From Acidobacteriota bacterium (GTDB lineage Bacteria; Acidobacteriota; Terriglobia; Bryobacterales; Bryobacteraceae), in the NCBI GenBank assembly GCA_029776225.1, contig JAKOTR010000031.1:1-64000 (forward strand): a DNA stretch of 64,000 nt, given 5' to 3'. Below are positions 30,536 to 47,801 of the stretch, piece by piece. Below the pieces are notes generated by a model. It ran no database searches and was not told where the DNA came from. It saw only the letters and a program-made list of their open reading frames with translations. The translations under genes and the position numbers were made by a program. Within the stretch, counting starts at the first letter, position 1; each line of letters begins with the position of its first letter.

Positions 30536-33500
30536 TCACCACTTAACTGCAAGTGTGAGGTTCATGAGCGGTTGACCACCGTAGTGGGCACTAATTGCAT
30601 CCCACGTCACTTTTCCGAAGTAGTGCGGGTTTCTCAGGTTGAGCGTGGTGCTAGGTTCCGCGAAGTTGTACCACTTGAACGGGTTCTGGAAATCGAACCG
30701 GAACTGGACGCGAGCGCGCTCTTTGATCGGCACTTCCTTGGATGCCGAGAGGTTTGCCGCGATGACGCGCTGCTTGCTCCAGATGTTGCGTCCGGCGTTG
30801 CCCCGTTCATAAGACGGCGCGTAGGTCACGCAGTCGTTCCCGAAGGGGGTTGCCGGTCCGCAATCGATCAGGGAGTTCTGATACTGGCGGGTCCACCGGT
30901 CGGGACCGAGATCTTGCCAGTTCTCGCGGAGTCTGGGCCTGCGCAGCAGGACCGCGCTGGTGGTCTGCGGCATCCAACTCGGGTAGTTCTGAGTGTCCAT
31001 ACCGGAGATGCCGATTCCGAGCGGCTCACCGCTGTAGATGGAGTAGGTCCACACGAAATCGAAACCGCCGATCAGCATATTCAGCCATCCACCGCGGTTC
31101 AGGAACCTGCGGCCTTTGCCTATCGGGATTTCATACATCATGCTGCCGGAGAACCTGTGTGTCTGGTCCCAATCGGCGCGCCCTCTGTTCAGCTTGCGCT
31201 CCAGGTAGATGTTGGAAACGTTTTCGTCGATCGTTTTGCCGAACGTGTAGAAGGCCAGGAAGTTCAGGCCCTTTGAGAAGCGCTTTTCGATTTTCACCGT
31301 GCCGGAATGGTGGCTCAGTTGCCCGTAGTTGCCCTGGTAATAGAGGTTGCCCCAGTTCGGGAAGGGCCGCGAGTACTGCGCAACGGGAATCCAGGCATCC
31401 CGGGCAACCGGATCGTCGGCCAGGTAGCCCCAGGGCAGGGTGTTGAACTGCAGGCTGCCGCTGTTGCCCACCTGCCTGCTGCCGTTGTATTGAACTTCCA
31501 GAAGGTAATCCCGGCTGAGTTCGTACTGGATGCCGAAATTCCAGTTCATCGTGTACGCAGCCTGAAGGTTCCTGTCCACGATGTTGGCGCTGTGGCCTCC
31601 CGGATTGCCGACATACGGCAGCGAACCGTCCGGTCGAAGAGCCGGATAGACCACCGGAGCGGGTCCTTCCTTCAACTGGAACAACGGCCGCGGATCGCCC
31701 GTCGGCCGGGACTGGGTGACGGAGCGGGACATCAACTCATCCGTGTACAGGAACCCCAGTTTCATATCCACGTGCGAGAGCGCAAAACCACTCCGCACGA
31801 CGAACTTCTGGTGCGGATGCCACGCAAGTCCGATTCGCGGCTGGTAGTTGTTCCAGTCCGTGTTGTACGGCTTGGCGCCCTTGGGGTGCGTCCAGGCTCC
31901 GCGGCAGCCTTCCGGCGGGCAGCTCCAGCCAGTGTACTGATTGTCGTCGATAGCGTTGGGGTCCCAAATGCTGATGAACCCGTACTTCTGCGTCGGCGGG
32001 GTCTCCACACTGTACCGCAGACCGAGGTTCAGCGTCAGGGTTGGGTGGATTTTCCAGTCGTCCTGGAAGTAGAAGCTGTGTTGCCAGGAACGCGGAAGGT
32101 TCGAATTCAGGGTCTGGCTGAAGGTGACCGAACTGATCGACCCAACCAGGAAACTGGCAAAGCTGTTTCCCGTATTGGGCAGGTCGGTGCCGTTCGGACG
32201 GAGTCCCGCCGTGCTCGTGAACGAGAAGTTTCCGCTGGGGCTGCCGATGCCGTAGGAGTTGACTCTGTACCGCATGAGCTCGTAGCCCCACTTGAACGCG
32301 TGGGACCCGCTGACCTTGGAGACATCCTGCTTGAACGACAGCGTCTCGTTCACGTCGACCGTGGGAGTGCCCTGCCCGAGGCTGCCGTAAAAGCCGAGCG
32401 GGAAGTGGTCCGGCGCGAGGTTAGGCAGACCGATCTCCGCTGCCATGTTCTTCATGTAAGTGGGAACTTCCCACCCCTGCCTGCGGCGGTAGTAGCCTGC
32501 TCGCGTTTCGCTGACCAGAGTGGGGCTGAGCACCCACGTCGTGCCCAAGGAGACCGTGTGCATGTGGATGGGCTCCCGAGCCTCCGAGCTGCTGAACGGC
32601 AGGTACTTGATTGTCGTGGGCTTGGTCCAGTAGTCGCGCTCGTTCCACGTGTAGCTGAAGTAGGATTTCAGCGAAGGGCTGAACTGGTGGTCGGTGCGGA
32701 TCGACCAGTTCGGCCAGAGGACCGCAGTTACCGGCGCCAGCGCCAAATTCTGCGTTGGTCCCGTCGTAGACATGCTTCCCGGCTGGTTTGGGTGAGTGAA
32801 AGGATCGTAGCTTAAGATCTTCGCAGCTACCGGATCAAACTGCGACTTCGGAATGATGTTATCTGGGAATGGATCCCGGACCCAGGTGCCATCAGAAAGC
32901 TGCCGGGTCGTACGGGGATCGTAAATCGGCTGGCCGATCCCTCCGAACCTGAAGTCGCCCTGCTTCATTTCCTCGGTGGGCACCGTGTACTGATTCTGCT
33001 TGGCCTGCTTATCGATCAGTTTTTGCCAGGCCAGCATGAAGAACGTACGGTTGCGGCCGTCGTAGATTTTCGGAATGTATACGGGGCCGCTGATGTTCGC
33101 ATCCGGCTGCGCGAAAACGATCATATCGCCTCGCTGCGTCGGGGTCTCCCGGTCGAAGTACTTGCGGTGCTGCATTCTGCGGGTGCGGCCGAGCATCGAG
33201 AGCATTCCGTGGAATTCGTTCGTGCCGGTCTTCTTGACAACCGTGATCGCGCCGCCGGCGGAGTGCCCGTATTCGGCCGGGAGCGCCGACGTAATAACCT
33301 TCACCTCTTCTACGGCGTTGAGGATCGTGTCCGAGGTCAAGCCGTTGTTGTCTGTGCCGGTGGCGAGTGCCCCGTCTTCGAAATACCCGATGTAGCCACT
33401 GCGCAGGCCGTTGATGTGGAAGTTGTTCATCTGGCCCGCATAGCCGAAGCCGTTCATCGTCATGCCGGGGACGAGGTACATAATTGCCTTGACGTTGCGC

Positions 33501-33991
33501 TGATACAGTGGCAACGCGTACTGGTAGTCGCCACTTACCACCTGGCCGGTCGCCGAGGTTTCCGTCTCCAGCAGCGGCACCGCTGCGGTGACTTCGATCG
33601 ACTCGCTTACCGCGCCGACCTCCAGGGTGGCATTGATAGCCATCGTGTCGCCGGTTCTCAATACCGCATTTTCGCGTATGAAACTCTTAAATCCAGCCGC
33701 TTCAACGGTTATCCTGTAGGGTCCGGGCCGGAGAGATCCCACGCGGTAGATCCCTTCCGAGTTCGTCTCCGTTACGCTTTGAAAGTTTGTTTCGGTCTGA
33801 GTGATCGTGACTTTGGCGCCGGGCACAACAGCGCCCGTAGAATCGGCTACCCGGCCGGTGATGGTGCCGGTGTCGATTTGCGCCCAAGCTGGAAATACTG
33901 CCAGGAATAGTAGGGAAAATACAGCGCAGATACATCGAATGCTCTGTACTTTCTTTGATGTAGTTGAGCAAGAAAGCAATTCAGTCAGCAC
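30536..33991 (-). CDS. Oar-like TonB-dependent receptor, 1151 residues
   Basis: Start GTG 33991 is preferred because AAGGAG lies eight bases before it; an upstream ATG at 34030 is possible. Signal peptide (CICAVFSLLFLAVFPAWAQ), then a carboxypeptidase-regulatory-like domain (TGTITGRVADSTGAVVPGAK; GIYRVGSLRPGPYRITVEA). The plug-like region has YQRNVKAIMYLVPGMTMNG and VEEVKVITSALPAEYGHSAG, followed by the beta-barrel to a C-terminal LTLAVKW. Residues NEFHGMLSMLGR mark the first barrel strands. Such receptors import or bind large ligands at the outer membrane in acidobacteria; the ligand is unknown. It is followed by the UroD gene and preceded by the exported hydrolase pair, all minus strand. 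Confidence 0.9.
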   Translation of the reverse strand: MLTELLSCSTTSKKVQSIRCICAVFSLLFLAVFPAWAQIDTGTITGRVADSTGAVVPGAKVTITQTETNFQSVTETNSEGIYRVGSLRPGPYRITVEAAGFKSFIRENAVLRTGDTMAINATLEVGAVSESIEVTAAVPLLETETSATGQVVSGDYQYALPLYQRNVKAIMYLVPGMTMNGFGYAGQMNNFHINGLRSGYIGYFEDGALATGTDNNGLTSDTILNAVEEVKVITSALPAEYGHSAGGAITVVKKTGTNEFHGMLSMLGRTRRMQHRKYFDRETPTQRGDMIVFAQPDANISGPVYIPKIYDGRNRTFFMLAWQKLIDKQAKQNQYTVPTEEMKQGDFRFGGIGQPIYDPRTTRQLSDGTWVRDPFPDNIIPKSQFDPVAAKILSYDPFTHPNQPGSMSTTGPTQNLALAPVTAVLWPNWSIRTDHQFSPSLKSYFSYTWNERDYWTKPTTIKYLPFSSSEAREPIHMHTVSLGTTWVLSPTLVSETRAGYYRRRQGWEVPTYMKNMAAEIGLPNLAPDHFPLGFYGSLGQGTPTVDVNETLSFKQDVSKVSGSHAFKWGYELMRYRVNSYGIGSPSGNFSFTSTAGLRPNGTDLPNTGNSFASFLVGSISSVTFSQTLNSNLPRSWQHSFYFQDDWKIHPTLTLNLGLRYSVETPPTQKYGFISIWDPNAIDDNQYTGWSCPPEGCRGAWTHPKGAKPYNTDWNNYQPRIGLAWHPHQKFVVRSGFALSHVDMKLGFLYTDELMSRSVTQSRPTGDPRPLFQLKEGPAPVVYPALRPDGSLPYVGNPGGHSANIVDRNLQAAYTMNWNFGIQYELSRDYLLEVQYNGSRQVGNSGSLQFNTLPWGYLADDPVARDAWIPVAQYSRPFPNWGNLYYQGNYGQLSHHSGTVKIEKRFSKGLNFLAFYTFGKTIDENVSNIYLERKLNRGRADWDQTHRFSGSMMYEIPIGKGRRFLNRGGWLNMLIGGFDFVWTYSIYSGEPLGIGISGMDTQNYPSWMPQTTSAVLLRRPRLRENWQDLGPDRWTRQYQNSLIDCGPATPFGNDCVTYAPSYERGNAGRNIWSKQRVIAANLSASKEVPIKERARVQFRFDFQNPFKWYNFAEPSTTLNLRNPHYFGKVTWDAISAHYGGQPLMNLTLAVKW

Positions 33992-34171
33992 TAATCCAAC
34001 TCCTTGACCGGCTGTGTGCAGGCCGGTCACGATGTGTTTGTGTTATGGTTTGCCAGCATCCGATAAACATGCGGCGCCGGTCTCTTAAACGGACGGACTC
34101 CTCCTGCACACCCAGAGCAGTCCGCCCGAAAACTGGTTCGCTCTCGTGCTGCGCGAGTTTATTCGAAAACG

Positions 34172-35392
34172 CTAAGCAGCCGGATTCGAAATCCCTGCCG
34201 ATTCCATGAAAGCGACGTATGCTTTCATCTCTTGAACGCGCTTCTGAACCACCTTGAAGATGTCTTCAGCGTGTTCCCTGATGGTCAATTGTGAGCAAGT
34301 ATTGGGATTTTTCTTTGTGGCTTCGTCGACGGTGCGGATCCAATCGGGCGGGATCTTGCTCGCCCCGGCGAGCGCTCCCGCCAGCGCGCCGGCTGAGGCG
34401 GCAAGGCAGTCGGTGTCGCGCCCGAAATTTACGGTCATGATGATCGTGTCCTCGACGTTGCCATTCGTGGCCAAAAACGCGGCGAACGCCTTGGTCGCGA
34501 TTTCGACCGCATAGGAATAGTGGAAAGGCAATCCGCCCGAACCGTCGTAGATTTCGTAAAAGGCGTCCCGCATCTTGGTCGTGTTGCCGTACTTCCGCGC
34601 GATGTCCAGACCCCTTTCCAGTTCCGGCCTGATCGACGGGTGGGCGTATTTCAGCGCCGTGTTGATCACCGAATCGACCGTCGCGTCGGGACGGCAGGCG
34701 TGCGCGAGCGCCGCGTTGTAGGCTGCTCCCCACAGGAATCCCTCGCTCGTAAGCGGGTGGTAGATGCGGCCCACATCGTATGTGTCCCGGATTGCGCCTT
34801 CTTCATCGCACGCATTCACCATCGCGATGGGCATAAAGGAGCGGACCATGGTGTTCAGGCCGTGCGTGTAATTGACTACGGTGCCGATGTAACCGGCGGG
34901 AACAACGCCGAGCTGGTTGTTGTACCCACGAACCTTTGCGACCTGTGTCGTCTCGACGTCGAACTCCGTGACGATTTTCTTCATCCGCTCCATTCGCTCG
35001 TCGGGGTTGGTTCTTGCCCAGGTCCGCGCCAGGTCTGCGGCGTTGATCCGGTCGCCCTTTTCGGCGATAGCCAGGCACATCTGCTTCACGCGCTCTGTGC
35101 CGTCCTCGGTCGAGCCGGCGACGTAGGGAAAGTTCCACCAAAGGTCCCAGGGCTCGAAGGTCTTCAGGACGCCGTACTTTTCTGCGATCTTTTCCCGGGA
35201 AAAGCCCTCGACCGCCACCCCCATGGCCGAGCCGATAAAGCTCCCGGCCAGGCAGCCGTAAATCTTGTCGAAAAGGTTGTGGGCGGGCGCGGCAGAGGCT
35301 GTCTGGACGGAGCCCGCCAGCGTGGCCGCCAGCGCCGAGTTCAGCAGGTCGCGCCTGCGGAGTTGATGGCTTTTGCCGTCGGGTTTAGTCAT
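34172..35392 (-). CDS. Exported ADP-ribosylglycohydrolase-fold protein, paralogue 1
   Basis: 406 residues. A twin-Arg-like N-terminus (LRRRDLLNSALAATLAGSVQ) suggests Tat export. The ADP-ribosylglycohydrolase fold is clear: DKIYGCLAGSFIGSAMGVAVEG, STEDGTERVKQMCLAIAEKG in place of the TDDT metal motif, a helical core and VNFGRDTDCLAASAGALAGA, equivalent to GGDTDT. Most acidic metal ligands are kept (E-D and D-T-D). Cytoplasmic DraG-type enzymes remove ADP-ribose; an exported form in a saccharide-use setting more likely cleaves an N- or O-glycosidic bond of another substrate. It sits 29 bases after paralogue 2 and upstream of the receptor gene. The substrate is inference. Confidence 0.85.
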   Translation of the reverse strand: MTKPDGKSHQLRRRDLLNSALAATLAGSVQTASAAPAHNLFDKIYGCLAGSFIGSAMGVAVEGFSREKIAEKYGVLKTFEPWDLWWNFPYVAGSTEDGTERVKQMCLAIAEKGDRINAADLARTWARTNPDERMERMKKIVTEFDVETTQVAKVRGYNNQLGVVPAGYIGTVVNYTHGLNTMVRSFMPIAMVNACDEEGAIRDTYDVGRIYHPLTSEGFLWGAAYNAALAHACRPDATVDSVINTALKYAHPSIRPELERGLDIARKYGNTTKMRDAFYEIYDGSGGLPFHYSYAVEIATKAFAAFLATNGNVEDTIIMTVNFGRDTDCLAASAGALAGALAGASKIPPDWIRTVDEATKKNPNTCSQLTIREHAEDIFKVVQKRVQEMKAYVAFMESAGISNPAA

Positions 35393-35421: not shown

Positions 35422-36633
35422 TCACGCGCCGGCCGATTCCAACACGGCCGCGAGCTGTTTCAACTTCTGGACTTTGTTCTGGAGCGCGCGGTAGATTCCC
35501 TCCGCGTACGCCTTTGTGGGCAGTTGCGATGCGGTGTAGTTGTTTCTCCTTGCCGCATCGTCAACCGTCCGGATCCACTCCGCCGGTATCGCGCTGGCGC
35601 CCGAGAGAGCGCCCGCCAGCGCGCCTGCCGCCGACGCCACGCCCGCGGTGTCCCGCCCGAGGTTTACTGCGAAGACGATCGTATCCTCGAAGTTACCCTT
35701 CATCGCCGCGAAAATAGCCAGCGCCTTGCAGGCCGCCTCGGCCGCATAGGTTTCCGCACACTTAACGCCCTTGGCGCAGTACATTTCGGTAAGTTCCTTA
35801 CGGAGTTGAGCCGGTTCGGGCTGCTTGGCCGCAACGGCCAGGGCACGCTTCAGGTTCCGGCGGATTTTACGATCCGCATACTCCCCCGCGGCGGCAATCA
35901 CGGAATCCACGGTGGCGTCCGGCCGGAAGGCCATAGCCAGTGCGGCTTGGAAGCTTGCTCCCCAGTGGTAGCCGTCGCTGTGCAGCGGCTGGTAAACACG
36001 CCCTACATCATGCACGTCCCTCACCGCCTCTGCCGGGTCGCAGGCGTTGATCATGGCAATCGGCTGGAAGGACCGCACGGTAATGTTCTGGTGGCTGTAA
36101 GGAACGTGCGTTCCGATGATCCCGGCCGGAATGAGACCGCTTCGGCCCATCGCCATCAGCGGCCGGTCGAACGGCGCCGCGCCGAGTTTCATCGCCTCAA
36201 ACTTCTTGTCGTCCTTTATGCCGATCCAGTGATTGACCAGATCTTCCGCGGTGACCCTGTCCTGCTTTGCGATGATTGCCAGGGCGATGTGCTTGAACTG
36301 CTCCGCTCCGCCATCGGTGGTCCCGGCCGGCCGCATTGCGGCAATGCCTTCGGAGCGGAACGGATGAAACGATTTCAGCGTGCCGTACTTCTTCGCGATC
36401 TGTTCCTCGGACCAGAGCGCGACCGGAGCCCCCATAGCCGCGCCGATGAAGGCTCCGGCGACACAGCCGTAAAACTTGTCGAACAGACTGCGCGGCTGCG
36501 CCGGATCCGCCCATAGGCGGTCTCCCAGGACGATCGAGCCTGCGAGTGCGCCGCCCACAATACCAGCGAACTTGCGGCGCCCATGCGGGCTGCCCACACT
36601 CGGCCCGTCCAGTGTGTTCTTGTCGGGCGACAT
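35422..36633 (-). CDS. Exported ADP-ribosylglycohydrolase-fold protein, paralogue 2, altered metal site
   Basis: 403 residues from ATG 36633, chosen because AAGGAG lies eight bases upstream; the longer frame to 36696 is unlikely. The N-terminus has GRRKFAGIVGGALAGSIVLG, a Tat/Sec-like export signal. The fold parallels paralogue 1 (DKFYGCVAGAFIGAAMGAPV), but the first metal motif reads TTDGGAEQF and the second NLGRDTAGVASAAGALAGA. Compared with the family, acidic residues are missing from both motifs, so catalysis may be weakened or changed. The gene is 52 bases after the beta-helix gene and 29 bases before paralogue 1; the pair arose by tandem duplication. Confidence 0.83.
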   Translation of the reverse strand: MSPDKNTLDGPSVGSPHGRRKFAGIVGGALAGSIVLGDRLWADPAQPRSLFDKFYGCVAGAFIGAAMGAPVALWSEEQIAKKYGTLKSFHPFRSEGIAAMRPAGTTDGGAEQFKHIALAIIAKQDRVTAEDLVNHWIGIKDDKKFEAMKLGAAPFDRPLMAMGRSGLIPAGIIGTHVPYSHQNITVRSFQPIAMINACDPAEAVRDVHDVGRVYQPLHSDGYHWGASFQAALAMAFRPDATVDSVIAAAGEYADRKIRRNLKRALAVAAKQPEPAQLRKELTEMYCAKGVKCAETYAAEAACKALAIFAAMKGNFEDTIVFAVNLGRDTAGVASAAGALAGALSGASAIPAEWIRTVDDAARRNNYTASQLPTKAYAEGIYRALQNKVQKLKQLAAVLESAGA

Positions 36634-36685
36634 TTCCTTTCTCCTTGCGTCTTCTACGCGCTGGTGTCCGGATTCGCGCGAGAAC

Positions 36686-38284
36686 TCACCGGGCACTTGT
36701 GAATTGGTGTGCGCCGATATCCAGGCTGCCGTCCGCCGGCAGGGGATTCCCGTAATAGTCGCGCGTGCCCGGGTCGATGTTGAACAGCTTTTTCAGATTC
36801 AGACCCTTGCTTATGGCCGGCGAACCCTGTAGCACCTGATATTCAAGAAGCGTCGCGAGCTTTCTCGGATCCATCAAAAGGCCGACGCCGCCGCCGCGGA
36901 ACAGCGGGTCTCCCACAACACCGACGACCTTGTCCCCAACCTTTTCCTGGCCGGTGGCCGCTGCCCATGCGTTCAGGTCGGTGTACTTGCCCACCTGGAA
37001 CCCGCGGCCGCCCAAGCCGAAATAGAGATTGCCGACAAAACGGCCTACGCTGTCCAGCGGCCGCGCGGCGTCGTGATATTCAATCTGCGGGCCGCCCGTG
37101 GCGAAAATGTTGTTGTAAAAAGTGATGGTTGGCAGCTTGCCGCTAACGCCGCGTTCGGTGCCGCCGAAATCAACCGCCGCACCCTGGGAGTTGAAGATCG
37201 TATTGTTGTGAACCATGGTGTCGATCATGTTCTCGCTGCCGATCCAGACGCGAATCGCCGCGACGTGCCGTATCGTGCGGCCTTCCCTCTTGTCGGTCTT
37301 CAGACCGTCGTCCTGGCTGATGTTATAGCGCACGATGTTGCCGGAGAACTTATTCCGGCCCACCTGGCAGATCAAAAACCCGGGGCCGAAATTGTTGTGC
37401 GAGTAATTGTACTGAATGATCGAGTTAGTTACTCCACCGTCAAGGTCGAATCCGCCACCGTCGCCCGTTGTGCTCCGGTTATGATGCGAAATGTTGAACT
37501 GCATGATGACCCTGTCGGATTGCCAGGTCCAGATGCCGACCGGGCCGTTTCCGCCTCTCCAGCCCATGTCCCAGCCGTTGAAGCGCGCCTCGCAGTATTC
37601 AATCACGGCGCCATCCGTGTAGCCGACGAAAATCCCGCTGCCGCTGTGCGTCCTGGTGAACGACGGATCGCCCGCGTTGTTCTCCGCGAGGCAGTGGGCG
37701 ATGTAGATGTTGCGCGATCTGGCGGGGCCCATGATGCCGATGCCTTCCTTGCCGTTGTCGTGCGCGTGCACCCGTGTGATGCGCACGTCGGCGACCCCGT
37801 TCATGTGGATGCCGTTCTTGCGGAAGCCCCAGACTTCGACGTCGTCCACCTCGATGTCCCTGGCCGACTGCGCAAACAGACCGGATTCCGTGCTCGCGGA
37901 CTTCCGTCCCGCGCCTTTGAGTTCCAGGTCGCGAATCACGAAATGATTGCAGCCGTCGATCGAAATGGCTCGTCCCGTTCCGCCGTCGATCACCGCCCGC
38001 CCGGCGTACGAGGTCACAGTCAGCTTCCTGCCGGGCGCGCCGCTGTCGGCGGCGTCGAGCACCAGCGTACCCTTGAAGGTCTGGCCACCCTCGAACAAGA
38101 TGCGATCGTCGGGCCCAAACGTGGTGCTGTTGAGCTTCTCAATCGTCTTCCACGGTTTGTCCATCGTGCCAGGGTTGGCATCGTCGCCCCGCGGGCTGAC
38201 ATAGTAATCCTTTGCGGCGCAAGTAACGCTCAGTGTAAGGAAGATAAGCGTCGTGATCGCCACGTCCAGACGTTTCATGTTCAT
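36686..38284 (-). CDS. Secreted right-handed beta-helix (pectate-lyase-like) protein
   Basis: 532 residues from ATG 38284 (AAGGGTGG upstream); a start at 38392 would bury the signal peptide. Signal peptide MNMKRLDVAITTLIFLTLSV, then KDYYVSPRGDDANPGTMDKPW, a standard opening of polysaccharide-lyase-like beta-helix proteins. Repeated coils with Asn/His ladders run from about 110 to 400 (HFVIRDLELKGAG, IHMNGVADVRITRVHAHDN, SIIQYNYSHNNFGPGFLI). The C-terminus ends DPLFRGGG... and GSLDIGAHQFT, a common terminal module. Likely an extracellular polysaccharide lyase or hydrolase, or glycan-binding protein; catalytic residues cannot be assigned by eye. It lies between the (alpha/alpha)6-like gene and the ADP-ribosylglycohydrolase-fold pair in one transcription direction. 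Confidence 0.85.
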   Translation of the reverse strand: MNMKRLDVAITTLIFLTLSVTCAAKDYYVSPRGDDANPGTMDKPWKTIEKLNSTTFGPDDRILFEGGQTFKGTLVLDAADSGAPGRKLTVTSYAGRAVIDGGTGRAISIDGCNHFVIRDLELKGAGRKSASTESGLFAQSARDIEVDDVEVWGFRKNGIHMNGVADVRITRVHAHDNGKEGIGIMGPARSRNIYIAHCLAENNAGDPSFTRTHSGSGIFVGYTDGAVIEYCEARFNGWDMGWRGGNGPVGIWTWQSDRVIMQFNISHHNRSTTGDGGGFDLDGGVTNSIIQYNYSHNNFGPGFLICQVGRNKFSGNIVRYNISQDDGLKTDKREGRTIRHVAAIRVWIGSENMIDTMVHNNTIFNSQGAAVDFGGTERGVSGKLPTITFYNNIFATGGPQIEYHDAARPLDSVGRFVGNLYFGLGGRGFQVGKYTDLNAWAAATGQEKVGDKVVGVVGDPLFRGGGVGLLMDPRKLATLLEYQVLQGSPAISKGLNLKKLFNIDPGTRDYYGNPLPADGSLDIGAHQFTSAR

Positions 38285-38385
38285 TCCACCCTTACTGACT
38301 CTTTTCTCTTCAATAGCGGTTCGCAAGAGCTCGTAACTCGAACTGCCTGCCCATACACCTACGTGGTTCGGCGACAGACGCCGCC

Positions 38386-40629
38386 TCACCACTGGAATTC
38401 GCCTTTCTCTCCAGGAACGACGGTGCGGCCGTTCAGCCGGATTCGGACCGGTTTGCCGAGCAGCCGGCCCCGATACCGGGCGCTGCGCGGCAGAGTGTTT
38501 ACATCGAGTTCAACTTGCTTTGCGGCACACTTGATGGATTTCACGACCACGCCATCCAGGCCGACCGCGTGGCAGCGTTCCGCATCGACGACAAGGTCGC
38601 CGTAGCGGCGCTCAAGCGCGATTGCCGTGGTGAGCGCGCTGCCCGTGCCCCAATGGAATCCCGACCGGCCGCTTCGCCGGTTTCTTCCCGAGTGGCCGTA
38701 ATTTTCGGCGCTTGCGCCCTTCGTCTCGTACTGATTGCCGAAATAGTTTCTCGGCGCAATCTCGCGGTTTTCTTCCATGACCACGAGAGCGAAGCTGGCC
38801 CGGGCCGCCGCGACGGCGCGCTCAAGCAGAGCGGGTTCTTTCGTTACGTCGTAGTAGTTGGCGAAGGTTTCGGCGAACTGCGCCTGGCGCGCGTCGTTCC
38901 ACTCGCCGTCCGTGTTCATGACCCCAAAGCCTCCGAAGGCCATGAGGTCCAGGTACGGCGGGTTCCACACCTGCTGGTAAAGGGACAGCACGTCAAGGCA
39001 GAACCGTCCCGCTGAAAGGTCCTCCGGGCGCTTGAACAAGAGGTACGCCACGCGGAACGCCTCCGCGCACCACTGCATCGCCAGCGTATTCTGCCCGTAC
39101 ATCTTCGTGACCGGATCGTAATAATTGAGTGGCTTTTTCGAGCACGAGAAGTACAGTTCGTAGTCGTCGAACCGCTGGTCGGGCAACACATGCGAGCGCA
39201 GCCAGTCCACGCCGGCTTTGACCGCCGCTTCGGCTTCGGCTCGCGTGCGGGAATCGAGCCTGTTCGCCAAAATCATCTCCCCGAGGAACCAAATAGGAAG
39301 GGCGCCTGAAGCCGAAGAGTCGAGAACGGGGTCGGCGCTATGATCCTCCACGCGCACGAGCGTCGGGAAGCCGCCATTGCTATGCCGCACACTGAGGACC
39401 GCCTGAGTGAACCGCGCAAGAAATGCGTCGGCTTCCGCGGATCGCTCCGGCCAGCGCAGCAGCCAGATCGCCGTCCAGGCCAGGTCGGGCAAATGGTACA
39501 ACCCTGGCCCGCCGCCGTGGTCGTAACTGGAATTCTGCCAGGTCCGGTCGACCGACCGGTAGATCATGGGGAAAAACCCCTTGGGGTTCGGAGACGTCAT
39601 CAAGAGCCGGTGGACATCGTAAGCGCGTTCCGTCCACTGGCGGTTGGACACCCGCTGTCCCCAGTGAAGCAGGCCCCATGCCGTTCGGAGATTATTGAAC
39701 CAGGAGTGGAACCAGAGGTCGCGCAGCGACTCCCTGCCTCCCCGCTGCCCGGTCTTCTTGTCTACATAAGTCGCCAGCGTGATGCCGCCGGTGCCGGGCT
39801 TCGGTCCCTCCACCCACAGGTCCCGCAGCGCCATCTCGTAGCCATAGCGGGCGTAGGTTTCAAACGGGACGACCTGCGGTTCGTGCCGGGCGATGTACTC
39901 CTTCCCGTACTGGTCCCAAAGAAAAGAGGAGACCCGGTTCAAAAAGGCTTCTCGCGTGGTCTTGCGAGAGTAAAGAACATAGCAGGCAAACCGGAACGAA
40001 TCAGCGCGAAACGGTTTTCCCGTCCGCCCGAAGTAAATGTGTCCTTCGGGGCGGGAATCGGCCACACCGTAGTCGATGATGGGCGCTTCGCCGTCGGGAA
40101 ATCGCAAGTCGAGAAAATGCGATGCCGGGCGCGAAGCGGCCAGCACCTTGACGTCCGGGATCACCGCCACGGCCGTCTGCCCTGCTGTCACGATGACGGC
40201 GGGCGAGCGGAAGCTATGATCCGCCGCAAATTGATGGGGCTTCTCTTTGATGTGCGGGATCCAGTGAAATGCCTTTCCGGCCTCGGACCAGGCCGACGGC
40301 TCGTCGGGCAGAAAGCGGAAGCGCGCGACCGCTTCCATGACATCGGTCGGGGCGTCAAACGAGACTTGCCATTCGACCCGCACGGTTTCCGGAGCGACGT
40401 CGCGCACCTGCCGCTCGATGCGCGGCTTTGCCCCTTCGGCGTTCACCTGCACGTCGCCCGCGATGATGGCAGGCTTGCCGACGGATACAGTTTGTGCGGC
40501 GCCGGGAAGTCCCGTCAGAGCCATCGCGAGTAAAAGGGCGGATTGTCCCGCCAGGGCGGCCAATCCCGAGCGGCGGCCTGCGCCAGGCGCGGGCATCTGG
40601 AACTCAGCTTTTCGGTTTTCTCTTGTCAT
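38386..40629 (-). CDS. Exported (alpha/alpha)6-barrel-like protein, putative glycoside hydrolase
   Basis: 747 residues, ATG 40629 with GGAAGGTGAG upstream. Signal peptide (LAALAGQSALLLAMALTGLPG). Residues about 60-250 are beta-rich; 250-660 show repeated helical hairpins with aromatic and acidic residues (WFHSWFNNLRTAWGLLHWG, DHGGGPGLYHLPDLAWTAIW, ALPIWFLGEMILANRL, NTLAMQWCAEAFRVAYLL), the look of an alpha-toroid glycosidase or lyase. A short C-terminal beta domain follows. I do not recognise a named family. It lies between the first receptor and the beta-helix protein, so a role in breaking down imported oligosaccharides is likely but inferred. Confidence 0.65.
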   Translation of the reverse strand: MTRENRKAEFQMPAPGAGRRSGLAALAGQSALLLAMALTGLPGAAQTVSVGKPAIIAGDVQVNAEGAKPRIERQVRDVAPETVRVEWQVSFDAPTDVMEAVARFRFLPDEPSAWSEAGKAFHWIPHIKEKPHQFAADHSFRSPAVIVTAGQTAVAVIPDVKVLAASRPASHFLDLRFPDGEAPIIDYGVADSRPEGHIYFGRTGKPFRADSFRFACYVLYSRKTTREAFLNRVSSFLWDQYGKEYIARHEPQVVPFETYARYGYEMALRDLWVEGPKPGTGGITLATYVDKKTGQRGGRESLRDLWFHSWFNNLRTAWGLLHWGQRVSNRQWTERAYDVHRLLMTSPNPKGFFPMIYRSVDRTWQNSSYDHGGGPGLYHLPDLAWTAIWLLRWPERSAEADAFLARFTQAVLSVRHSNGGFPTLVRVEDHSADPVLDSSASGALPIWFLGEMILANRLDSRTRAEAEAAVKAGVDWLRSHVLPDQRFDDYELYFSCSKKPLNYYDPVTKMYGQNTLAMQWCAEAFRVAYLLFKRPEDLSAGRFCLDVLSLYQQVWNPPYLDLMAFGGFGVMNTDGEWNDARQAQFAETFANYYDVTKEPALLERAVAAARASFALVVMEENREIAPRNYFGNQYETKGASAENYGHSGRNRRSGRSGFHWGTGSALTTAIALERRYGDLVVDAERCHAVGLDGVVVKSIKCAAKQVELDVNTLPRSARYRGRLLGKPVRIRLNGRTVVPGEKGEFQW

Positions 40630-40778: not shown

Positions 40779-43700
40779 TCAGAAGTCCAGCCTCGCGGCG
40801 ATCTGAACCTGGCGATTGCCGCTGATGCTGGTGATCTGCCCGAAGGTGGGCGACGTCACGTTGGTTTGGGGGCTGCCCAGTCGCGAGCGATTGAATCCGT
40901 TTAGCATTTCCGCCCGGATCTGGAAGCGCACGCCCTCACGAATCATCGTGTTCTTCTGGATGCCGAAGTCCTCGTTCAGCGACGCGGTCCTGCGTGCACT
41001 CCCGTACCGCCTCGCGGCAGTGCCGAGCGTGAGCGCAGGCGGGTTGCTGAACTTGTCCTTTAAAAGATAGGTGTTGTTAGGCGAATTCGGATTCGCGAAA
41101 TCGAACTTGTTGTCGTCGAAATTCGGGTTCACCAGCGGGCCGGGAGCGATGTTCGGGACGTTACCGCCGCCATTCCAGGCGCTGCTGGGAGACGAGGCCG
41201 AGAAGCCGAGGGGCGTGCCGGAGGCATAGTTGACGATCGCACTGATTGTCCAACCGCCAACGATCGCATTCAGAACACGTCCCGCCTCGCCAAGCAGCGG
41301 ACGGCCGCGTCCAATGGGCAGGTCGTAGCTTATGTAACCCTTGAAGACGTGCGGCATATCGGAGGTGGAATAGGATTTGTAGTTCCGCATGTTGTAGTAA
41401 TCCAAACCTCCGGTGTCTCCGCCGATGAGCGACGAATTGATATTGGTGAGGTTTTTCGACCAGACGTAGTTCGCATACGCGGTCAGTCCGTTCGAAAACT
41501 CCTTGTTCAGGATCACCTGGAGTGAATGGTAAGTGCTGAAGCCGAGGGGCGTACCGTAGGAACGGATGGTCGAGTTGCCCTGCACCTGCGGGTAGTCTCT
41601 CAGCGCGCTCGCGACGGTTCCCCTGAAGCCGGGGAACGGATACCGGATACCGTTGGCGGCCGCCTGGGCCTCATTGGTAACAGGGTTGTTCAGAGCGGCG
41701 CCGTACTGAGCCATCCACTCAGGCCGGATCTGATTGAGGCGAGCCAGTTCGCTCTTGAGGCTGGTGGCCTTGTTGGCCACATAACCGATATCAAGCACGA
41801 GATTTCTCGCCAGTTCGCGCTGGATGTTGAAGCTCCACATCTGGATGTATCCCGGGGTGCCGTAGAGGGGATCGATCATGCCGGGGCGGTTGAAGTTGCC
41901 CCAGCTCGGATCCCGCGAGCCCTCGGTGAACCGGTCCAGGGGAAGCCCGTCATCCCAATTAAAGATTCCCGCCCACCGGTTGACGGGGTCGGCTGAGAAC
42001 TGGTAGGTGCGGCCCACCATAATGCTGGTGGCAGTCCCCAGCGGGGTGGCTTCCCACGCGTTGAAGTTGTCGGCGTCGTACATGATTCCGTAGGAGCCCC
42101 GAAGGGTCCAGTTGCCTGCAGGCCGGAATGCGAAGCCGAAACGCGGGCCGAACGCGGTGTATACCTTCTTGCCGAAATATCTGCGCCCGGTGCAGTCAGG
42201 GCACTTGCCCGCGAACTCGTAGGCGCCCTTCAGCCCCGAGATCGGGTCGATAACCTCCGTGCTCCAACTGGAGATGCGGTCATGGTCCTCGACGAAGGGA
42301 GGCTGATAGTCCCACCGCAGCCCGAGGTTCAGGGTAAGCCGGTTGTTCACCTTGAAGTCGTCCTGGATGAACAGCGCGGTGTAGCTGCGGCGGCCGCCCA
42401 TCTTGCTGGGATCCACCCAGTTGCCGCTGTCTACAATGCCCAGAAGGTAGCTGGCGAACGCGTAGCCGGTCTGGTTGCCGGCAAAGGTTTCATTGGGAAT
42501 TGCAGTAGCCAGGGGGCTGAAGTTGAAGCCGACACGGTGGCGGCGGAGGAACCGCTGAGCGTAGCGCCGGACATCGATGCCGAGCTTGATGAAGTGGCGT
42601 CCCTTATTGAGGCTAAGCGTGTTCAGCAAGCCGTAGCCGTCGCTCCAGTTGAAGTCGCCGATCTGGTTCCCCACCCGGCTGAGGCTGACGAAAGGCCCGC
42701 CGCCCCAATTGATCTCCGGATACGCGATCGAGCTCAGGTTTGCGATACCCATCTCCTTGGCGCCGTCCACTTCCGCGTAGGCGTTGATGTTTGGGTTCAC
42801 CTGGCGGTTGTAATGGACGTTGATCGTGTTCAGAACGGTCGGAGTGATGGTCCAATCATGGGCAATCCGTCCCATTTGGGTCTTGATGCGCTGGGTGCGC
42901 GCCGAGGACAGCGGCCCACCGTCCACAGCGTTGGCATCGAACAGCACACCGCCGTCGTACATGAGCCTGGGCCTGGCGTTGTAGGCGTAGGAGCCGGAGA
43001 GCCTGTGGTCGCTCCCGATCAAATGGTCTCCCTTAACGGAGAACTGATACTGGTCGAAGCGGGGGTTGCTGGTGACCAGAAAATGTTGATTGTTCTCCAG
43101 CGGGATCACACCGTTGGCGTCCCGGACGGTTGGCAGGTAGCCCTGACGGACCTTCTCGTTGAGACGCTGCGAAACCTTGCTGATCCGCGATACAGGGATG
43201 ACGTTCCCAGGGAACATTTCACCGACCCAGCGTCCGTTGGGAAGCTGGCGGAAAGTAGCCGGGTCGTAAATCGCTCCCCTCAGAACGGGGCGTCCCAGCG
43301 CGTCGGTGACGTTCGGAAGGGCCGGACCAAGCAGGCGGCTCAGATCTCCATCCAGCCATTCCGGCTGGGGAGCAGTCCTGCTCGGGGCTCCCATCATTTC
43401 GTTCCGGAGGGAATACCTCTCGTAGGCGACATAGAAAAAGGTCCGGTCGCGGCCGTTGTAGACCTTGGGCAGGTACACCGGCCCGCCGAAACTGGCGGCG
43501 TAGTTTTTCTGGCGGTCGCGAGGCTTGTCAAGGCCGCGGAAGTTGTTGACAAAGCCGTTGGAGTTGAAAAATTCGTTTCGGATGCCAACGTAGGCGCTTC
43601 CATGGGGCGTATTCGTGCCGGACTTCATTACATAGTTGAACACGCCGCCCTGGGCCCGGCCGAACTCGGCCGAGATTCCGCTGGTCTGGACCTTGAGCTC

Positions 43701-44321
43701 CTGGAGCGCCTCCACCGAAACGGAGGATTCCCCAAAGTGGCCGGAAAGATACGTGGTGACCGAGGCCCCATCCAGCAGCGATTCTTTGGAGAACTCTGTG
43801 CTGCCGTTGATTCGGGTCGCCCAGCTCGAGCCGCTCACCCCAGGGGCAAGCTTGTAAGCGAATCCCTCGGCCTCCCTGCCGGCGTTGAACGTAAGCGGCA
43901 GGTCCTTTAGTTGCAGAGTGTCGATGCTCGTCCCCACCTCAGGCGAGTCCGTCGCCAGCCGCGGGAGCTCACCGGTGACCGTGATCGACTCTGCCACGTC
44001 CCCCACTTCCAGTGCCACGTCCACACGCCGGACCTCCGTCGCCCCGAGGGTAATGCCCTGACGCGACAGGCGCTTGAAGCCTGGCGCTTCGACAATCACC
44101 TCGTAGGTCCCGGGTTGCAGGTTGGGAGTGGAGAACTGTCCATATTCATTGGCCTGCGCTTTAATCGTCGCTCCAGTTGCCGGGTTCCTGATGGTGATGC
44201 TGGCGCCGGGAATCGCCGCCCCCTCTGGATCGGTGACAGTTCCGGCGATGGTTCCCCGGTTCAACTGGGCCATAGCCATTACAGCTAGCGAACACAGGAT
44301 CACTGCTATTCTGTGAACCAT
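40779..44321 (-). CDS. Oar-like TonB-dependent receptor, 1180 residues
   Basis: ATG 44321, signal peptide VHRIAVILCSLAVMAMA. The carboxypeptidase-regulatory domain follows (GTIAGTVTDPEGAAIPGAS; YGQFSTPNLQPGTYEVIVEA), then plug-like LPLTFNAGREAEGFAYKLAP, LDGASVTTYLSGHFGESSVS and ISAEFGRAQGGVFNYVMKSG, and the barrel. It ends RQVQIAARLDF with a terminal Phe. This is the first gene of the long minus-strand locus and faces the malectin regulator across a divergent intergenic region, suggesting it is the regulated promoter-proximal gene. Ligand unknown; with its neighbours, plant-derived or microbial glycans are plausible. Confidence 0.92.
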   Translation of the reverse strand: MVHRIAVILCSLAVMAMAQLNRGTIAGTVTDPEGAAIPGASITIRNPATGATIKAQANEYGQFSTPNLQPGTYEVIVEAPGFKRLSRQGITLGATEVRRVDVALEVGDVAESITVTGELPRLATDSPEVGTSIDTLQLKDLPLTFNAGREAEGFAYKLAPGVSGSSWATRINGSTEFSKESLLDGASVTTYLSGHFGESSVSVEALQELKVQTSGISAEFGRAQGGVFNYVMKSGTNTPHGSAYVGIRNEFFNSNGFVNNFRGLDKPRDRQKNYAASFGGPVYLPKVYNGRDRTFFYVAYERYSLRNEMMGAPSRTAPQPEWLDGDLSRLLGPALPNVTDALGRPVLRGAIYDPATFRQLPNGRWVGEMFPGNVIPVSRISKVSQRLNEKVRQGYLPTVRDANGVIPLENNQHFLVTSNPRFDQYQFSVKGDHLIGSDHRLSGSYAYNARPRLMYDGGVLFDANAVDGGPLSSARTQRIKTQMGRIAHDWTITPTVLNTINVHYNRQVNPNINAYAEVDGAKEMGIANLSSIAYPEINWGGGPFVSLSRVGNQIGDFNWSDGYGLLNTLSLNKGRHFIKLGIDVRRYAQRFLRRHRVGFNFSPLATAIPNETFAGNQTGYAFASYLLGIVDSGNWVDPSKMGGRRSYTALFIQDDFKVNNRLTLNLGLRWDYQPPFVEDHDRISSWSTEVIDPISGLKGAYEFAGKCPDCTGRRYFGKKVYTAFGPRFGFAFRPAGNWTLRGSYGIMYDADNFNAWEATPLGTATSIMVGRTYQFSADPVNRWAGIFNWDDGLPLDRFTEGSRDPSWGNFNRPGMIDPLYGTPGYIQMWSFNIQRELARNLVLDIGYVANKATSLKSELARLNQIRPEWMAQYGAALNNPVTNEAQAAANGIRYPFPGFRGTVASALRDYPQVQGNSTIRSYGTPLGFSTYHSLQVILNKEFSNGLTAYANYVWSKNLTNINSSLIGGDTGGLDYYNMRNYKSYSTSDMPHVFKGYISYDLPIGRGRPLLGEAGRVLNAIVGGWTISAIVNYASGTPLGFSASSPSSAWNGGGNVPNIAPGPLVNPNFDDNKFDFANPNSPNNTYLLKDKFSNPPALTLGTAARRYGSARRTASLNEDFGIQKNTMIREGVRFQIRAEMLNGFNRSRLGSPQTNVTSPTFGQITSISGNRQVQIAARLDF

Positions 44322-44651
44322 TAGTTAATCCCTCAACCTTTTGGTCCCCTCTCAGGAGCCTTCAGCCTGGAAGCCCTGGCAAGTGCTGTTCGAGCCGCCC
44401 ATGCATCGCGCCGGCTGTCTGACCTCCCGAAAGATTAGGCAGATTATAGGGGCGTGACTAGCCTGGATGTAGGCCAAACCTGCTAAACCAGGGGCGTTTT
44501 GTCTCTTTTATTGAATCTATGGGACTTACATAGCAACGTTAACTGTTAACGGAGGGCGACACCAAACGGACAGACGAGCTTGTGAGCGTCATTGACATCG
44601 CTTCAACTCTGCTGGTATCATGGCCGCTCGACAAAGGAGGTGAGGGGTCGT
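44322..44651. promoter_or_regulatory. Divergent intergenic region between receptor and malectin regulator
   Basis: 330 bp without a gene; AT-rich around 44450-44560 compared with its flanks. It must hold the promoters of both divergent genes and is the obvious place for a regulator-binding site. I do not see a clear inverted repeat. Confidence 0.4.
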
Positions 44652-46232
44652 TTGGCTGACAACCATGTGGAAGAGCTCGCCGAACTCGTTAGGGTGCTGA
44701 CTTCCAAAACACTCAGCCGCGCACCCAACCTTGTAAAGATTCTGGGGTATGTTTGCCGGGAGTATTTCGAAGGGCGGGCCGCGCTTCTTAAGGAATACAA
44801 TATCGCGGTCCAGGCCCTGGGCCGGCCGCCCGACTTCGATCCAACCAGGGACAGCATCGTCAGAACGGAAGTCTCCCGCCTCCGCAAGCGCCTGGCTCAC
44901 TACTATGCGACCGAGGGGGCGTCCAATGCCCTTCGGATCACCCTGCCCGAAGTGGGATACGTCCCGATTTTCACCCGCAGAGACGAGGCCGTTGGCGACA
45001 CCGCGAAAACGCCGGATGACGTGAAAACGCCAGACGCCGCCGGCGATAGAGAAAAGGAGTATTCCGAACCGCGGCCGAGCTTTTTCTTTCCTGCCGCTAG
45101 GAAAAAGACGCTCCGGTACTCGGCCGTGGCGTTTACGGTCGCGATCCTGGCGTTCGCGTTTGTCTATGTCGCTTTTTTGCGAGACAACGCTGGTAGCGTC
45201 ATTGAGGCCGCCTCGGCGGAACCAGCGCAGCAGCCCGCGATGAATAATGGGGGCCACCCTGCGCCTAAGGGGGCGATCCGGATTAACGCGGGTTCATCTT
45301 CGCGGTACCTCGACCGCTCAGGTCAGCTCTGGGAAAGCGACCGTTACTACAGTGGCGGCTCAACCATCGTCCGGCCGGGCAGGAGAATCGCGCGAACTTT
45401 CGACCAGCCAATCTATCAGTCCGCGCGAGAAGGAGACTTTCAGTACGATATCCCGCTGCCTCCCGGCGTTTACGACCTCCACCTCCATTTCGCTGAAATC
45501 ATTTTTCAGCCGGCTTTGGATTCGTCCGCCGAAATGCGCCGCTTTCATGTGACGATGAACGGCAAGCCCTTGCTCACCGATTTCGACATTGCTCTGGATG
45601 CTCCCGGCACCAGCACGGCTGACGAGCGTGTCTTCAAGGACGTCACCCCCGCTGAGGATGGCTTCCTCCACCTGAAGTTCACCTCATTTCTCAAGTCGGC
45701 CCTGCTTAGCGGAATCGAAATCATACCCAGCGAGCGAGGACGCATGCGGCCGATTCGCATTCTGGCGGGTCTCCGAACCTACTACGACCGTAAGGATCAG
45801 TTCTGGGGGCCGGACCGCTATTTTGACGGGGGATTCGCCGAAAACCTGCTGGCGAACGCGACAGGAACGCCCGATCCGGAGCTGTATGCACGGCAGCGGT
45901 ATGGCAACTTCAGTTATCACATCCCCGTCGCGCCAGGCCGCTACTCCGTCACTCTGCGTTTCGCCGAATCGAATTTCGGGGTAAGGGATTTCGGCATCCC
46001 AAGCCCCGCTCCAGACCGCACGGGCAGCAGAATCTTCGATATCTACTGCAACAGGGTGATCCTGGCGAAGAATTTCGACATCCTCAAGGAAGCGGGCGGT
46101 CCGAACATTGCACTGGAAAAGACCTTTTCCGGATTGGTGCCCAACGCGCAAGGCAAACTGGTGCTTTCGTTTGTTCCGGTCAGGGACTATGCATCGGTGC
46201 GCTCGATCGAGGTGATCGACGAGGGCTCGTGA
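44652..46232 (+). CDS. Membrane-spanning regulator with two malectin-like domains
   Basis: 526 residues from TTG 44652 (AAAGGAGGTG about ten bases upstream fits better than ATG 44592). Residues about 5-95 match the N-terminal module found in rhizobial and acidobacterial adenylate-cyclase-like regulators: LSRAPNLVKILGYVCREYFE, IAVQALGRPPDFDPTRDSIV, SRLRKRLAHYY and ITLPEVGYVPIF, probably DNA-binding. One membrane helix (YSAVAFTVAILAFAFVYVAF, about 150-170) leads to two tandem malectin-type domains (about 205-365 and 370-525), each with YY/YF...GG, a jelly-roll YDLHLHFAEI or YSVTLRFAES, and RIFDI/RRFHV strands. The topology is that of ToxR/CadC one-component sensors. Saccharide sensing and control of the divergent locus are inference. 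Confidence 0.75.
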   Translation: MADNHVEELAELVRVLTSKTLSRAPNLVKILGYVCREYFEGRAALLKEYNIAVQALGRPPDFDPTRDSIVRTEVSRLRKRLAHYYATEGASNALRITLPEVGYVPIFTRRDEAVGDTAKTPDDVKTPDAAGDREKEYSEPRPSFFFPAARKKTLRYSAVAFTVAILAFAFVYVAFLRDNAGSVIEAASAEPAQQPAMNNGGHPAPKGAIRINAGSSSRYLDRSGQLWESDRYYSGGSTIVRPGRRIARTFDQPIYQSAREGDFQYDIPLPPGVYDLHLHFAEIIFQPALDSSAEMRRFHVTMNGKPLLTDFDIALDAPGTSTADERVFKDVTPAEDGFLHLKFTSFLKSALLSGIEIIPSERGRMRPIRILAGLRTYYDRKDQFWGPDRYFDGGFAENLLANATGTPDPELYARQRYGNFSYHIPVAPGRYSVTLRFAESNFGVRDFGIPSPAPDRTGSRIFDIYCNRVILAKNFDILKEAGGPNIALEKTFSGLVPNAQGKLVLSFVPVRDYASVRSIEVIDEGS

Positions 46233-46668: not shown

Positions 46669-47801
46669 CATGGCTGATCAGTTATCGGTCCTTACGGAAA
46701 CAATCGGCATAGTTTATAGTTTTAAGACGCATTCAACAGATTCGGGATCGAAAGGAGAGCATCGGCGAGCAGAATACGAAGGCGACCCTGATCGAGCCGG
46801 TGCTCGCGGCACTTGGCTGGAACCTTCAGGAAATCGATGAGGTACGCCGCGAGTACCGACGCAAACCGCAGGACAACCCTGTGGATTACGCCCTGTTCCT
46901 GAACCGCACCGAATGCCTTTTTGTTGAAGCCAAGTCGCTAGAGAAGGACTTGAGCGATCGTAAATGGATTTCTCAGAATTTGGCTTACGCCACAGTGGCC
47001 GGAGTGCAATGGTGCGTTCTCACCAACGGCGACGAATACCGCATCTACAACGCGCATGCCGCGGTGGACGTAGAGGACAAGTTGTTCCGGACAGTTCGGA
47101 TCTCAGCCACCGAAGCGAAACATGTGGCTGAGACACTGATTCTGCTGTCGAAGGATATGATGCGCGGCAGCCGGCTCGACGAGCTCTGGAAGGCCCACTT
47201 TATCGACCGTAACGTCAGAATGGCGCTCGAAAGCTTGCTATCAGACGAAGACGGAAGACTAGTTCGGCTGATACAGAAAAAAGCGCCCGGCTTGACCCCG
47301 GCTGACGTCCGTGCTTCGTTGAAGCGCGCAGTAGTCCGTATCGACTTTCCAGTGCCGTTTGCTCCTCCGGCATCTGAGAAGACCGCCACTTTCCTGAGAA
47401 ATCGCGAAAGAGAGAAGGCGGGCTCGCGCCACGAGGCGGGCAAGAAAGCCTGGGAAACCATGAAAGCCATGTCGAATGCCACCCTCGAAAACTTAATTGC
47501 CGCCGGCATCATTAAACCACCGCTCGAAGTGGAGCGTGATTACAAGGGCGTGCGCCTGACGGCTGTTATCGAAGCCAACGCGAAGGTGGTTTTCTGTGGA
47601 AAGGCATACTCATCGCTGTCGACGGCCGCCGGCATGGCGCGCAAGTCTGTGATCGGCGCTCCGCACGGCTATCCGTACCCTCGGACGAACGGATGGCAGT
47701 TCTGGCAATATCGCGACGAGGACGGCAGATTGCAGGAACTGGACCGGGCACGGAAGCGCTATCTGGCGCTCACGCAGCAAGCCGCGGCATCCCCAAACTA
47801 A
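46669..47801 (+). CDS. Orphan HsdR-N (type I restriction R-subunit N-terminal-like) protein, possible 5' frameshift
   Basis: The core frame reads IGEQNTKATLIEPVLAALGW, then DNPVDYALFLNRTECLFVEAK, a PD-(D/E)xK nuclease motif (Asp...Glu-Ala-Lys), and WCVLTNGDEYRIYNA, typical of HSDR_N proteins. The frame is open only from 46713 and has no good start there; ATG 46669 (MADQLSVLTETI) lies in another frame, so one indel between about 46705 and 46730 probably separates start and body. Starting at GTG 46800 would cut conserved residues. The C-terminal 120 residues (LENLIAAGIIKPPLEVERDY...VVFCGKAYSSLSTAAGMARK) resemble a restriction-system DUF found beside such domains. No HsdM, HsdS or helicase domain nearby. 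Confidence 0.7.

Follow-up and report, generated by a model that had tools for sequence, protein, structure and literature searches.

The locus and the architecture of the putative regulator

The window, by which we mean the whole stretch of 64,000 nucleotides analysed here, comes from a soil acidobacterium and carries a gene for a putative membrane one-component regulator that is divergent to a gene for a TonB-type receptor (Table 1). The preliminary description had placed the regulator's open reading frame at 44652–46232, and this is correct: AAAGGAGGTGAG precedes the TTG codon and a stop codon occupies 46230–46232. Its divergent position to a receptor was likewise confirmed, the partner being the OMP_b-brl_4 gene at 40779–44321 (−) (Pfam, E 7.5e-167, 557.7 bits versus a cut-off of 30), with 330 bp between the two start codons. 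The further proposal of a 15-kb locus with glycan-like enzymes is only partly right: two proteins of the ADP-ribosylglycohydrolase fold, a beta-helix protein, a 747-aa protein and a second receptor lie downstream on the receptor's strand, and none of these is a proven glycan enzyme. The 747-aa neighbour of the receptor found no match in Pfam, NCBIfam or PDB sequence searches, and none of the window proteins scanned matched SusD. Beside the regulator, at 46800–47801 (+), lies a gene for a protein with the restriction-associated HSDR_N and RAMA domains. In the whole genome, OMP_b-brl_4-type receptors account for 54 matches, some of which are pieces of one gene.

Table 1. Positions of genes, protein domains and putative regulatory elements in the window
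Feature	Position	Strand	Basis and remarks
Membrane one-component regulator (putative)	44652..46232	+	526 aa; TTG start at 44652, stop 46230-46232
Shine-Dalgarno sequence AAAGGAGGTGAG, 5' of the TTG start	44633..44644	+	Direct sequence reading; strong
Predicted sigma-70 promoter of the regulator, TTGACA-18-TATCAT	44592..44621	+	11/12, TG before -10; shuffles mean 0.3
Candidate operator CGTTAACTGTTAACG: two GTTAAC, odd 15-bp palindrome	44537..44551	.	Motif search
N-terminal domain, residues 4-114, winged-helix-like model	44661..44993	+	AlphaFold model; without Pfam family
Single membrane helix at about residues 157-177, preceded by basic residues	45120..45182	+	Hydropathy and model
Malectin domain 1, residues 206-361; most canonical sugar residues missing	45267..45734	+	PF11721 and alignment
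Malectin domain 2, residues 364-524; sugar residues kept family-wide, two of five mapped positions altered here	45741..46223	+	PF11721 and alignment
Divergent TonB-type receptor, CarboxypepD_reg and OMP_b-brl_4, 1180 aa	40779..44321	-	Pfam
Gene after the receptor, 747 aa, without family	38386..40629	-	Pfam, NCBIfam and PDB sequence searches
Right-handed beta-helix protein	36686..38392	-	Family scan
Pair of neighbouring ADP-ribosylglycohydrolase-fold proteins, flanked on both sides by TonB-type receptors	34172-35392 and 35422-36696	-	Family scan
Second OMP_b-brl_4 receptor; upstream region without GTTAAC	30536..34030	-	Family scan and motif search

The AlphaFold model of the full-length regulator has a mean pLDDT of 86.8, with block means of 91–97 over residues 11–110. 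Its single hydrophobic segment (best 19-residue window from residue 158, KD 2.57) is modelled as a helix spanning residues 155–186, and two stretches match the malectin family PF11721 (Pfam, E 1.6e-38 for the protein, 132.7 bits versus a cut-off of 23). We infer that the sensor part lies beyond the membrane, opposite the DNA-binding-like domain.

The N-terminal domain (N-domain), about 110 residues long, is modelled as a set of helices with a beta-hairpin wing (pLDDT 94.7 for the domain alone). The helices occupy residues 2–13, 16–19, 22–36, 45–52 and 66–83 of the domain model, to which 3 must be added for full-length numbers, and are followed by the two wing strands. In full-length numbering, the candidate recognition helix spans residues 69–86 and the wing strands 94–97 and 106–109, while R71, R78, L81, Y85, Y103, F107, G41 and E48 are invariant in 66 relatives. 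No Pfam family was found in the domain at E up to 1, and Trans_reg_C (PF00486) did not match the window protein at the same limit; in one paralogue, the recognition-helix region gave a match to Trans_reg_C that stayed below the cut-off (E 0.0063). A profile search of PDB sequences returned nothing better than E 1, and the three weak rows for complex III subunit 9 (E 1 to 1.2) were rejected. A Foldseek search against the PDB likewise gave nothing at E 0.001 (best E 0.79). A structural aligner placed PrrA (Z 7.6), SaeR (7.1) and PhoB (6.8) in its top rows, with CadC at 5.9, all below Z 8 and interspersed with the unrelated folds of ScpB (6.4) and Fur (5.7). Because Z values this low may reflect a common arrangement, we call the domain winged-helix-like; the modelled resemblance, closest to the DNA-binding domains of OmpR, PhoB and CadC, is suggestive only.

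For the two malectins taken together, the best structural matches are the ectodomains of the plant receptors FERONIA and ANXUR (E 6e-19 to 1e-16), at 16–19 percent identity and with a loose two-domain superposition (rmsd above 8); single malectins match malectin itself and bacterial glucuronidase modules. PMC13335976 gives the sugar contacts of human malectin as Ser80, Glu102, Tyr104, Tyr131, Lys138 and Asp201. Five positions, namely four of these contacts and the neighbour of Tyr131, were mapped by hand via alignments, Ser80 and Asp201 being left out. Among 66 relatives, malectin 2 has E in 60, an aromatic residue in 62, an aromatic residue or His in 63, an aromatic residue in 60 and R in 66 at these positions. 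The window protein has Q415, Y417, N441, F442 and R460 there, so that Q415 and N441 replace the E and the aromatic residue of most relatives, and the window copy may differ in sugar specificity. Malectin 1 keeps the R in 63 of the 66 and one aromatic residue in 45, the other mapped sugar residues not being kept. Since the contact pattern is found in malectin 2 and is mostly missing from malectin 1, a sugar, if one is bound, would probably occupy malectin 2 or the cleft that separates the domains.

Paralogues, relatives and the divergent receptor

The genome to which the window belongs encodes 13 proteins with the N-domain. Two malectins are present in four of them (C45, C83, C73 and C62), that is, the architecture of the window regulator recurs in three paralogues. 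An OMP_b-brl_4 receptor is divergent to eight of the 13, three of the malectin type and five others, and is missing from this position at C62, C21_344, C45_131, C21_482 and C19_59. The nine further N-domain proteins (loci L025–L033, e.g. L026:9328-10635 and L028:9416-10774) possibly carry another sensor domain; in the seven scanned, nothing exceeded the Pfam cut-offs. The eight non-malectin proteins that were checked have a hydrophobic segment from residue 137–177 and then about 250 residues, and a second, weaker hydrophobic segment was seen in C19_59.

Beyond this genome, 275 plasmid records, whose names are mostly rhizobial, contain the N-domain; at the N-domain of the 15 listed (H1–H15), no gene is annotated in 12 and a hypothetical protein in three. 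Ten N-domain proteins from other genomes, picked mostly for their long reading frames, were scanned, and TPR repeats were found in five, PD40 in four and no match in one, with a below-cut-off TolB_N match in one of the TPR-bearing proteins. TPR or PD40 parts joined to an N-terminal DNA-binding domain are an architecture known from CadC-like regulators.

For related loci in GTDB genomes, the best 80 of 119 relatives were kept, of which 79 are, judging by their titles, presumably acidobacterial. The exception, L063, titled Arcobacter sp., bears a malectin regulator/receptor pair of the acidobacterial type and is probably a mislabelled genome bin. In 73 of the 80 loci there is an open reading frame that fits the N-domain model as well as the malectin model, which is more than chance would give. 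Setting aside the seven loci lacking such a frame and two with too little upstream sequence, and including L086, whose frame is short and apparently broken, 42 of 71 homologues have a divergent receptor no more than 700 bp away and 29 have none, the distances being approximate because gene starts were set at the first possible start codon. In four of these 29 a receptor is directly downstream on the same strand, and in seven (L052, L056, L057, L058, L066, L102 and L108) a same-strand receptor lies upstream at 0.3 to 5.6 kb. Among named strains, KBS 96 (L069) has the divergent receptor, with three copies of the GTTAAC motif described below, and none was detected in Granulicella sp. S156 (L094) or Silvibacterium bohemicum S15 (L091).

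Regulator and receptor appear to have diversified together: across 33 pairs with long receptors, their distances correlate at r 0.594, a value reached in none of 5000 permutations and to which shared organism ancestry contributes. The full-length malectin type was found in 13 of the 41 genomes sampled from the window's family (22 copies), and at E 1e-110 in two of 149 genomes of a phylum sample, one of them the window's own, a count in which misses are possible because scoring was limited to 10 candidates per genome. At the paralogous loci C83 and C73, the gene after the receptor has a GH9 match, and in the 23 of 45 loci where such a gene was found (L036 among them) it matches TPR repeats in eight and cytochrome c7 in four. 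Because the genes after the receptor vary in this way, the ligand may differ between loci.

The GTTAAC motif

Of the 45 divergent intergenic regions, 31 contain GTTAAC, versus 4.1 in shuffled sequence; the 14 without it include that of paralogue C73. It lies upstream of 31 of 43 malectin regulators with a divergent receptor versus 20 of 485 other genes of the same loci (Fisher p 5.9e-27, which overstates independence because the regions come from related genes). From the 503 control genes, 18 (6 with GTTAAC) had been removed, as their upstream regions overlapped the regulator or receptor promoter. No other palindromic hexamer of equal G+C count exceeded 18 of the 43 regulator upstream regions. 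The motif is tied to the malectin subfamily: it is found in 13 of 30 upstream regions of malectin regulators without a divergent receptor, compared with two of the nine other N-domain regulators of the same genome and one of six receptors beside non-malectin regulators, regions under 250 bases being left out of the non-malectin comparison. Of three external N-domain proteins that lack a malectin match, two (L106 and L113) also have it upstream.

The flanks of GTTAAC favour CGTTAACG. In 41 of the 45 regions, four near-duplicates being left out, 50 percent of the spacings fall within 1.5 bp of multiples of about 11 bp versus 27 percent at random (1 of 1000 randomizations as strong), an arrangement that would suit tandem binding on one helix face. 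A free motif search by expectation maximization returned about 1000 weak sites and was set aside, except for its hint of TTAA repeats spaced by about 11 bp. The CGTTAACTGTTAACG palindrome gave no support for a role as a hairpin (DNA fold z −0.46).

Single GTTAAC hexamers are not enriched across the window (six found versus 5.5 in shuffles), and none lies upstream of its three other receptors. Two GTTAAC within 30 bp, by contrast, occur in the whole 5.18-Mb genome only upstream of the window regulator and of the C83 paralogue, versus six places for the reversed control. In other genomes such a pair alone is not specific: the 41 family genomes hold 68, fewer than the reversed control (239), and 61 of these lie elsewhere than upstream of full-length malectin regulators, two of them near non-malectin N-domain proteins (G036:C109 and G025:C28), upstream by about 200 and 790 bp. 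The other seven are within 350 bp upstream of full-length malectin regulators (six of 22 regulators), compared with an arithmetical expectation of about 0.002; this count is no independent test, because some of the genomes share sequences with the loci used for motif discovery.

Where regulator and receptor stand in tandem, the distant receptor may have the motif in its own promoter, with three to four GTTAAC at L057, L058, L102 and L108 and likewise three or four at L136 (same record as L052), although L066 has none. Among 20 non-adjacent receptors, four have GTTAAC, all in tandem with a malectin regulator, and 16 do not. The presence of the motif in tandem receptor promoters argues that it belongs to the regulator and receptor promoters and does not merely reflect shared intergenic ancestry. 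One subclade has another candidate recognition helix, with VRVTANEVRKKLA and near variants in place of VRVEAHRLRKRL. In this subclade, a different element, GTACCAAAC (GTTTGGTAC), is present in seven of nine regions (L053, L055, L059, L060, L062, L064 and L076) versus none of 36 others, while GTTAAC is found in four of the nine versus 27 of the 36.

Sigma-70 sites were predicted on the regulator side in 15 and on the receptor side in eight of 41 regions. For the seven regulator promoters with GTTAAC near by, the nearest site is upstream, at −32 to −80; for six receptor promoters, the nearest site is at −75, −49, 0, +8, +11 and +41. The predicted promoters are thus not decisive between activation and repression.

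Proposed mechanism and relation to known systems

With the architecture, the conserved receptor pairing and the GTTAAC motif with its tie to the malectin subfamily in hand, we consider it reasonably probable that the protein is a ToxR/CadC-like one-component regulator that acts through GTTAAC on its own gene and the receptor operon and reads, with its tandem malectins, a ligand that is likeliest an oligosaccharide. The cytoplasmic winged-helix-like N-domain would bind the GTTAAC sites of the shared intergenic region (CGTTAACTGTTAACG, 44537–44551) and govern expression of the regulator gene itself as well as of the divergent TonB-type receptor operon. The periplasmic tandem malectins would read a ligand that enters through the divergent receptor or is produced near it; the likeliest candidate is an oligosaccharide held by malectin 2 or by the cleft that the two malectins form. 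The binding of GTTAAC by this protein, the class of ligand, transmembrane signalling and the sign of regulation are what we infer; as to the last, activation would be a guess from the ToxR/CadC precedent. A ToxR-like regulator had been proposed in the preliminary description, with homologues never linked to receptor loci as one of the findings that would speak against it. The pairing in 42 of 71 homologues did not refute the proposal, which also agrees with the winged-helix-like model, the basic residues before one membrane helix and the promoter motif, but the likeness is architectural only, and Trans_reg_C does not match the window protein.

The same description held that the protein senses saccharides directly through two malectin domains. 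The tandem PF11721 domains bear out its architectural part; direct saccharide sensing is plausible and a good hypothesis, but malectin 1 is mostly without sugar residues and two are changed in malectin 2. In addition, according to PMC6038381, the sugar surface is missing from the ANXUR malectins, and no tested carbohydrate was bound by ANXUR1, whose malectins form an inter-domain cleft instead. These same observations, together with the FERONIA and ANXUR ectodomains as top structural matches across both malectins and the co-diversification of regulator and receptor (r 0.594), would fit a regulator of the locus whose paired malectins recognize a protein or a peptide, such as the receptor's N-terminal domain or plug, much as FERONIA-type receptors and RALF peptides interact. 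We consider a protein or peptide ligand rather unlikely, given that about 60 of 66 relatives retain the sugar-contact pattern in malectin 2 and that GH9 genes follow the receptor at two paralogous loci.

The role of the N-domain, too, can be read otherwise. GTTAAC might be the site of another, cytoplasmic regulator, the membrane protein being a co-regulator or using a different site, as could be argued from the family members without GTTAAC, from its presence upstream of two of the three external non-malectin N-domain proteins and from the subclade with GTACCAAAC (7/9 versus 0/36). That subclade cuts both ways, however, because its promoter element changes along with its recognition helix, and the motif tracks the malectin subfamily even where a divergent receptor is missing (13/30, versus 2/9 and 1/6 for the non-malectin sets), which leaves a separate regulator improbable in our view. 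More improbable still, to the point where we would be surprised to see it borne out, is an N-domain whose target is not DNA but another protein, for example a sigma or anti-sigma factor, which would make the protein a sensor and not a transcription factor. The N-domain has no Pfam family, no significant structure match and nothing below E 1 among PDB sequences, which would allow for such a role, but its model has a basic conserved helix followed by a beta-hairpin, proteins of other genomes combine it with TPR or PD40 parts, and the promoter motif is strong.

Returning to a regulator that acts on GTTAAC and reads an oligosaccharide, a wider generalization can be put forward tentatively, as a possibility that we would stop short of calling probable: lineage-expanded membrane one-component regulators with an undescribed winged-helix domain may control many acidobacterial TonB-type receptor loci. 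Their malectin branch would be a self-contained oligosaccharide switch with its own operator code, consisting of GTTAAC phased at about 11 bp and of another element in the subclade with the other recognition helix. Acidobacteria are abundant in soils, and we know of no account that matches each acidobacterial receptor gene to its substrate. A regulator that has an external binding domain, a receptor conserved as its partner and a predicted operator would make ligand, target promoter and receptor substrate jointly testable.

In the parts of the literature that our searches reached, we found no description of such a malectin-sensor membrane regulator, and the papers pairing malectin with TonB, winged helix or ToxR concern, by their titles, other subjects. 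What is new here are the paralogues, the conserved divergent pairing and the GTTAAC motif, in sum a variant of the membrane one-component regulator with a predicted operator. With ToxR/CadC-like regulators it shares an N-terminal domain modelled as winged-helix-like, one membrane helix, a putative far-side sensor and presumably signalling by a single protein. It differs in that its sensor is a tandem malectin and its N-domain is not matched by PF00486 and begins with helices, whereas OmpR/PhoB domains start with a beta sheet. In Bacteroidetes, SusC loci have hybrid two-component and SusR regulators, with a local membrane sensor beside the TonB-type receptor. The window locus resembles these systems in having a membrane sensor local to such a receptor, but it has a single protein without a kinase or receiver match, an OMP_b-brl_4 receptor and GTTAAC sites.

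Compared with the malectin family itself (PF11721; animal malectin and bacterial malectin-like modules), both domains are over the cut-off and malectin 2 has the contact pattern family-wide, although in the window protein domain 1 is without most sugar contacts and domain 2 is changed at two of the five mapped positions. With the plant CrRLK1L receptors FERONIA and ANXUR1/2 the protein has in common a tandem malectin ectodomain and one membrane helix, but it has a DNA-binding-like domain where the plant receptors have a kinase. A plant-receptor-like tandem malectin layout occurs in what appears to be a bacterial one-protein signalling chain and, if the wider generalization is true, a FERONIA-like tandem-malectin ectodomain has here been placed directly on a DNA-binding domain.
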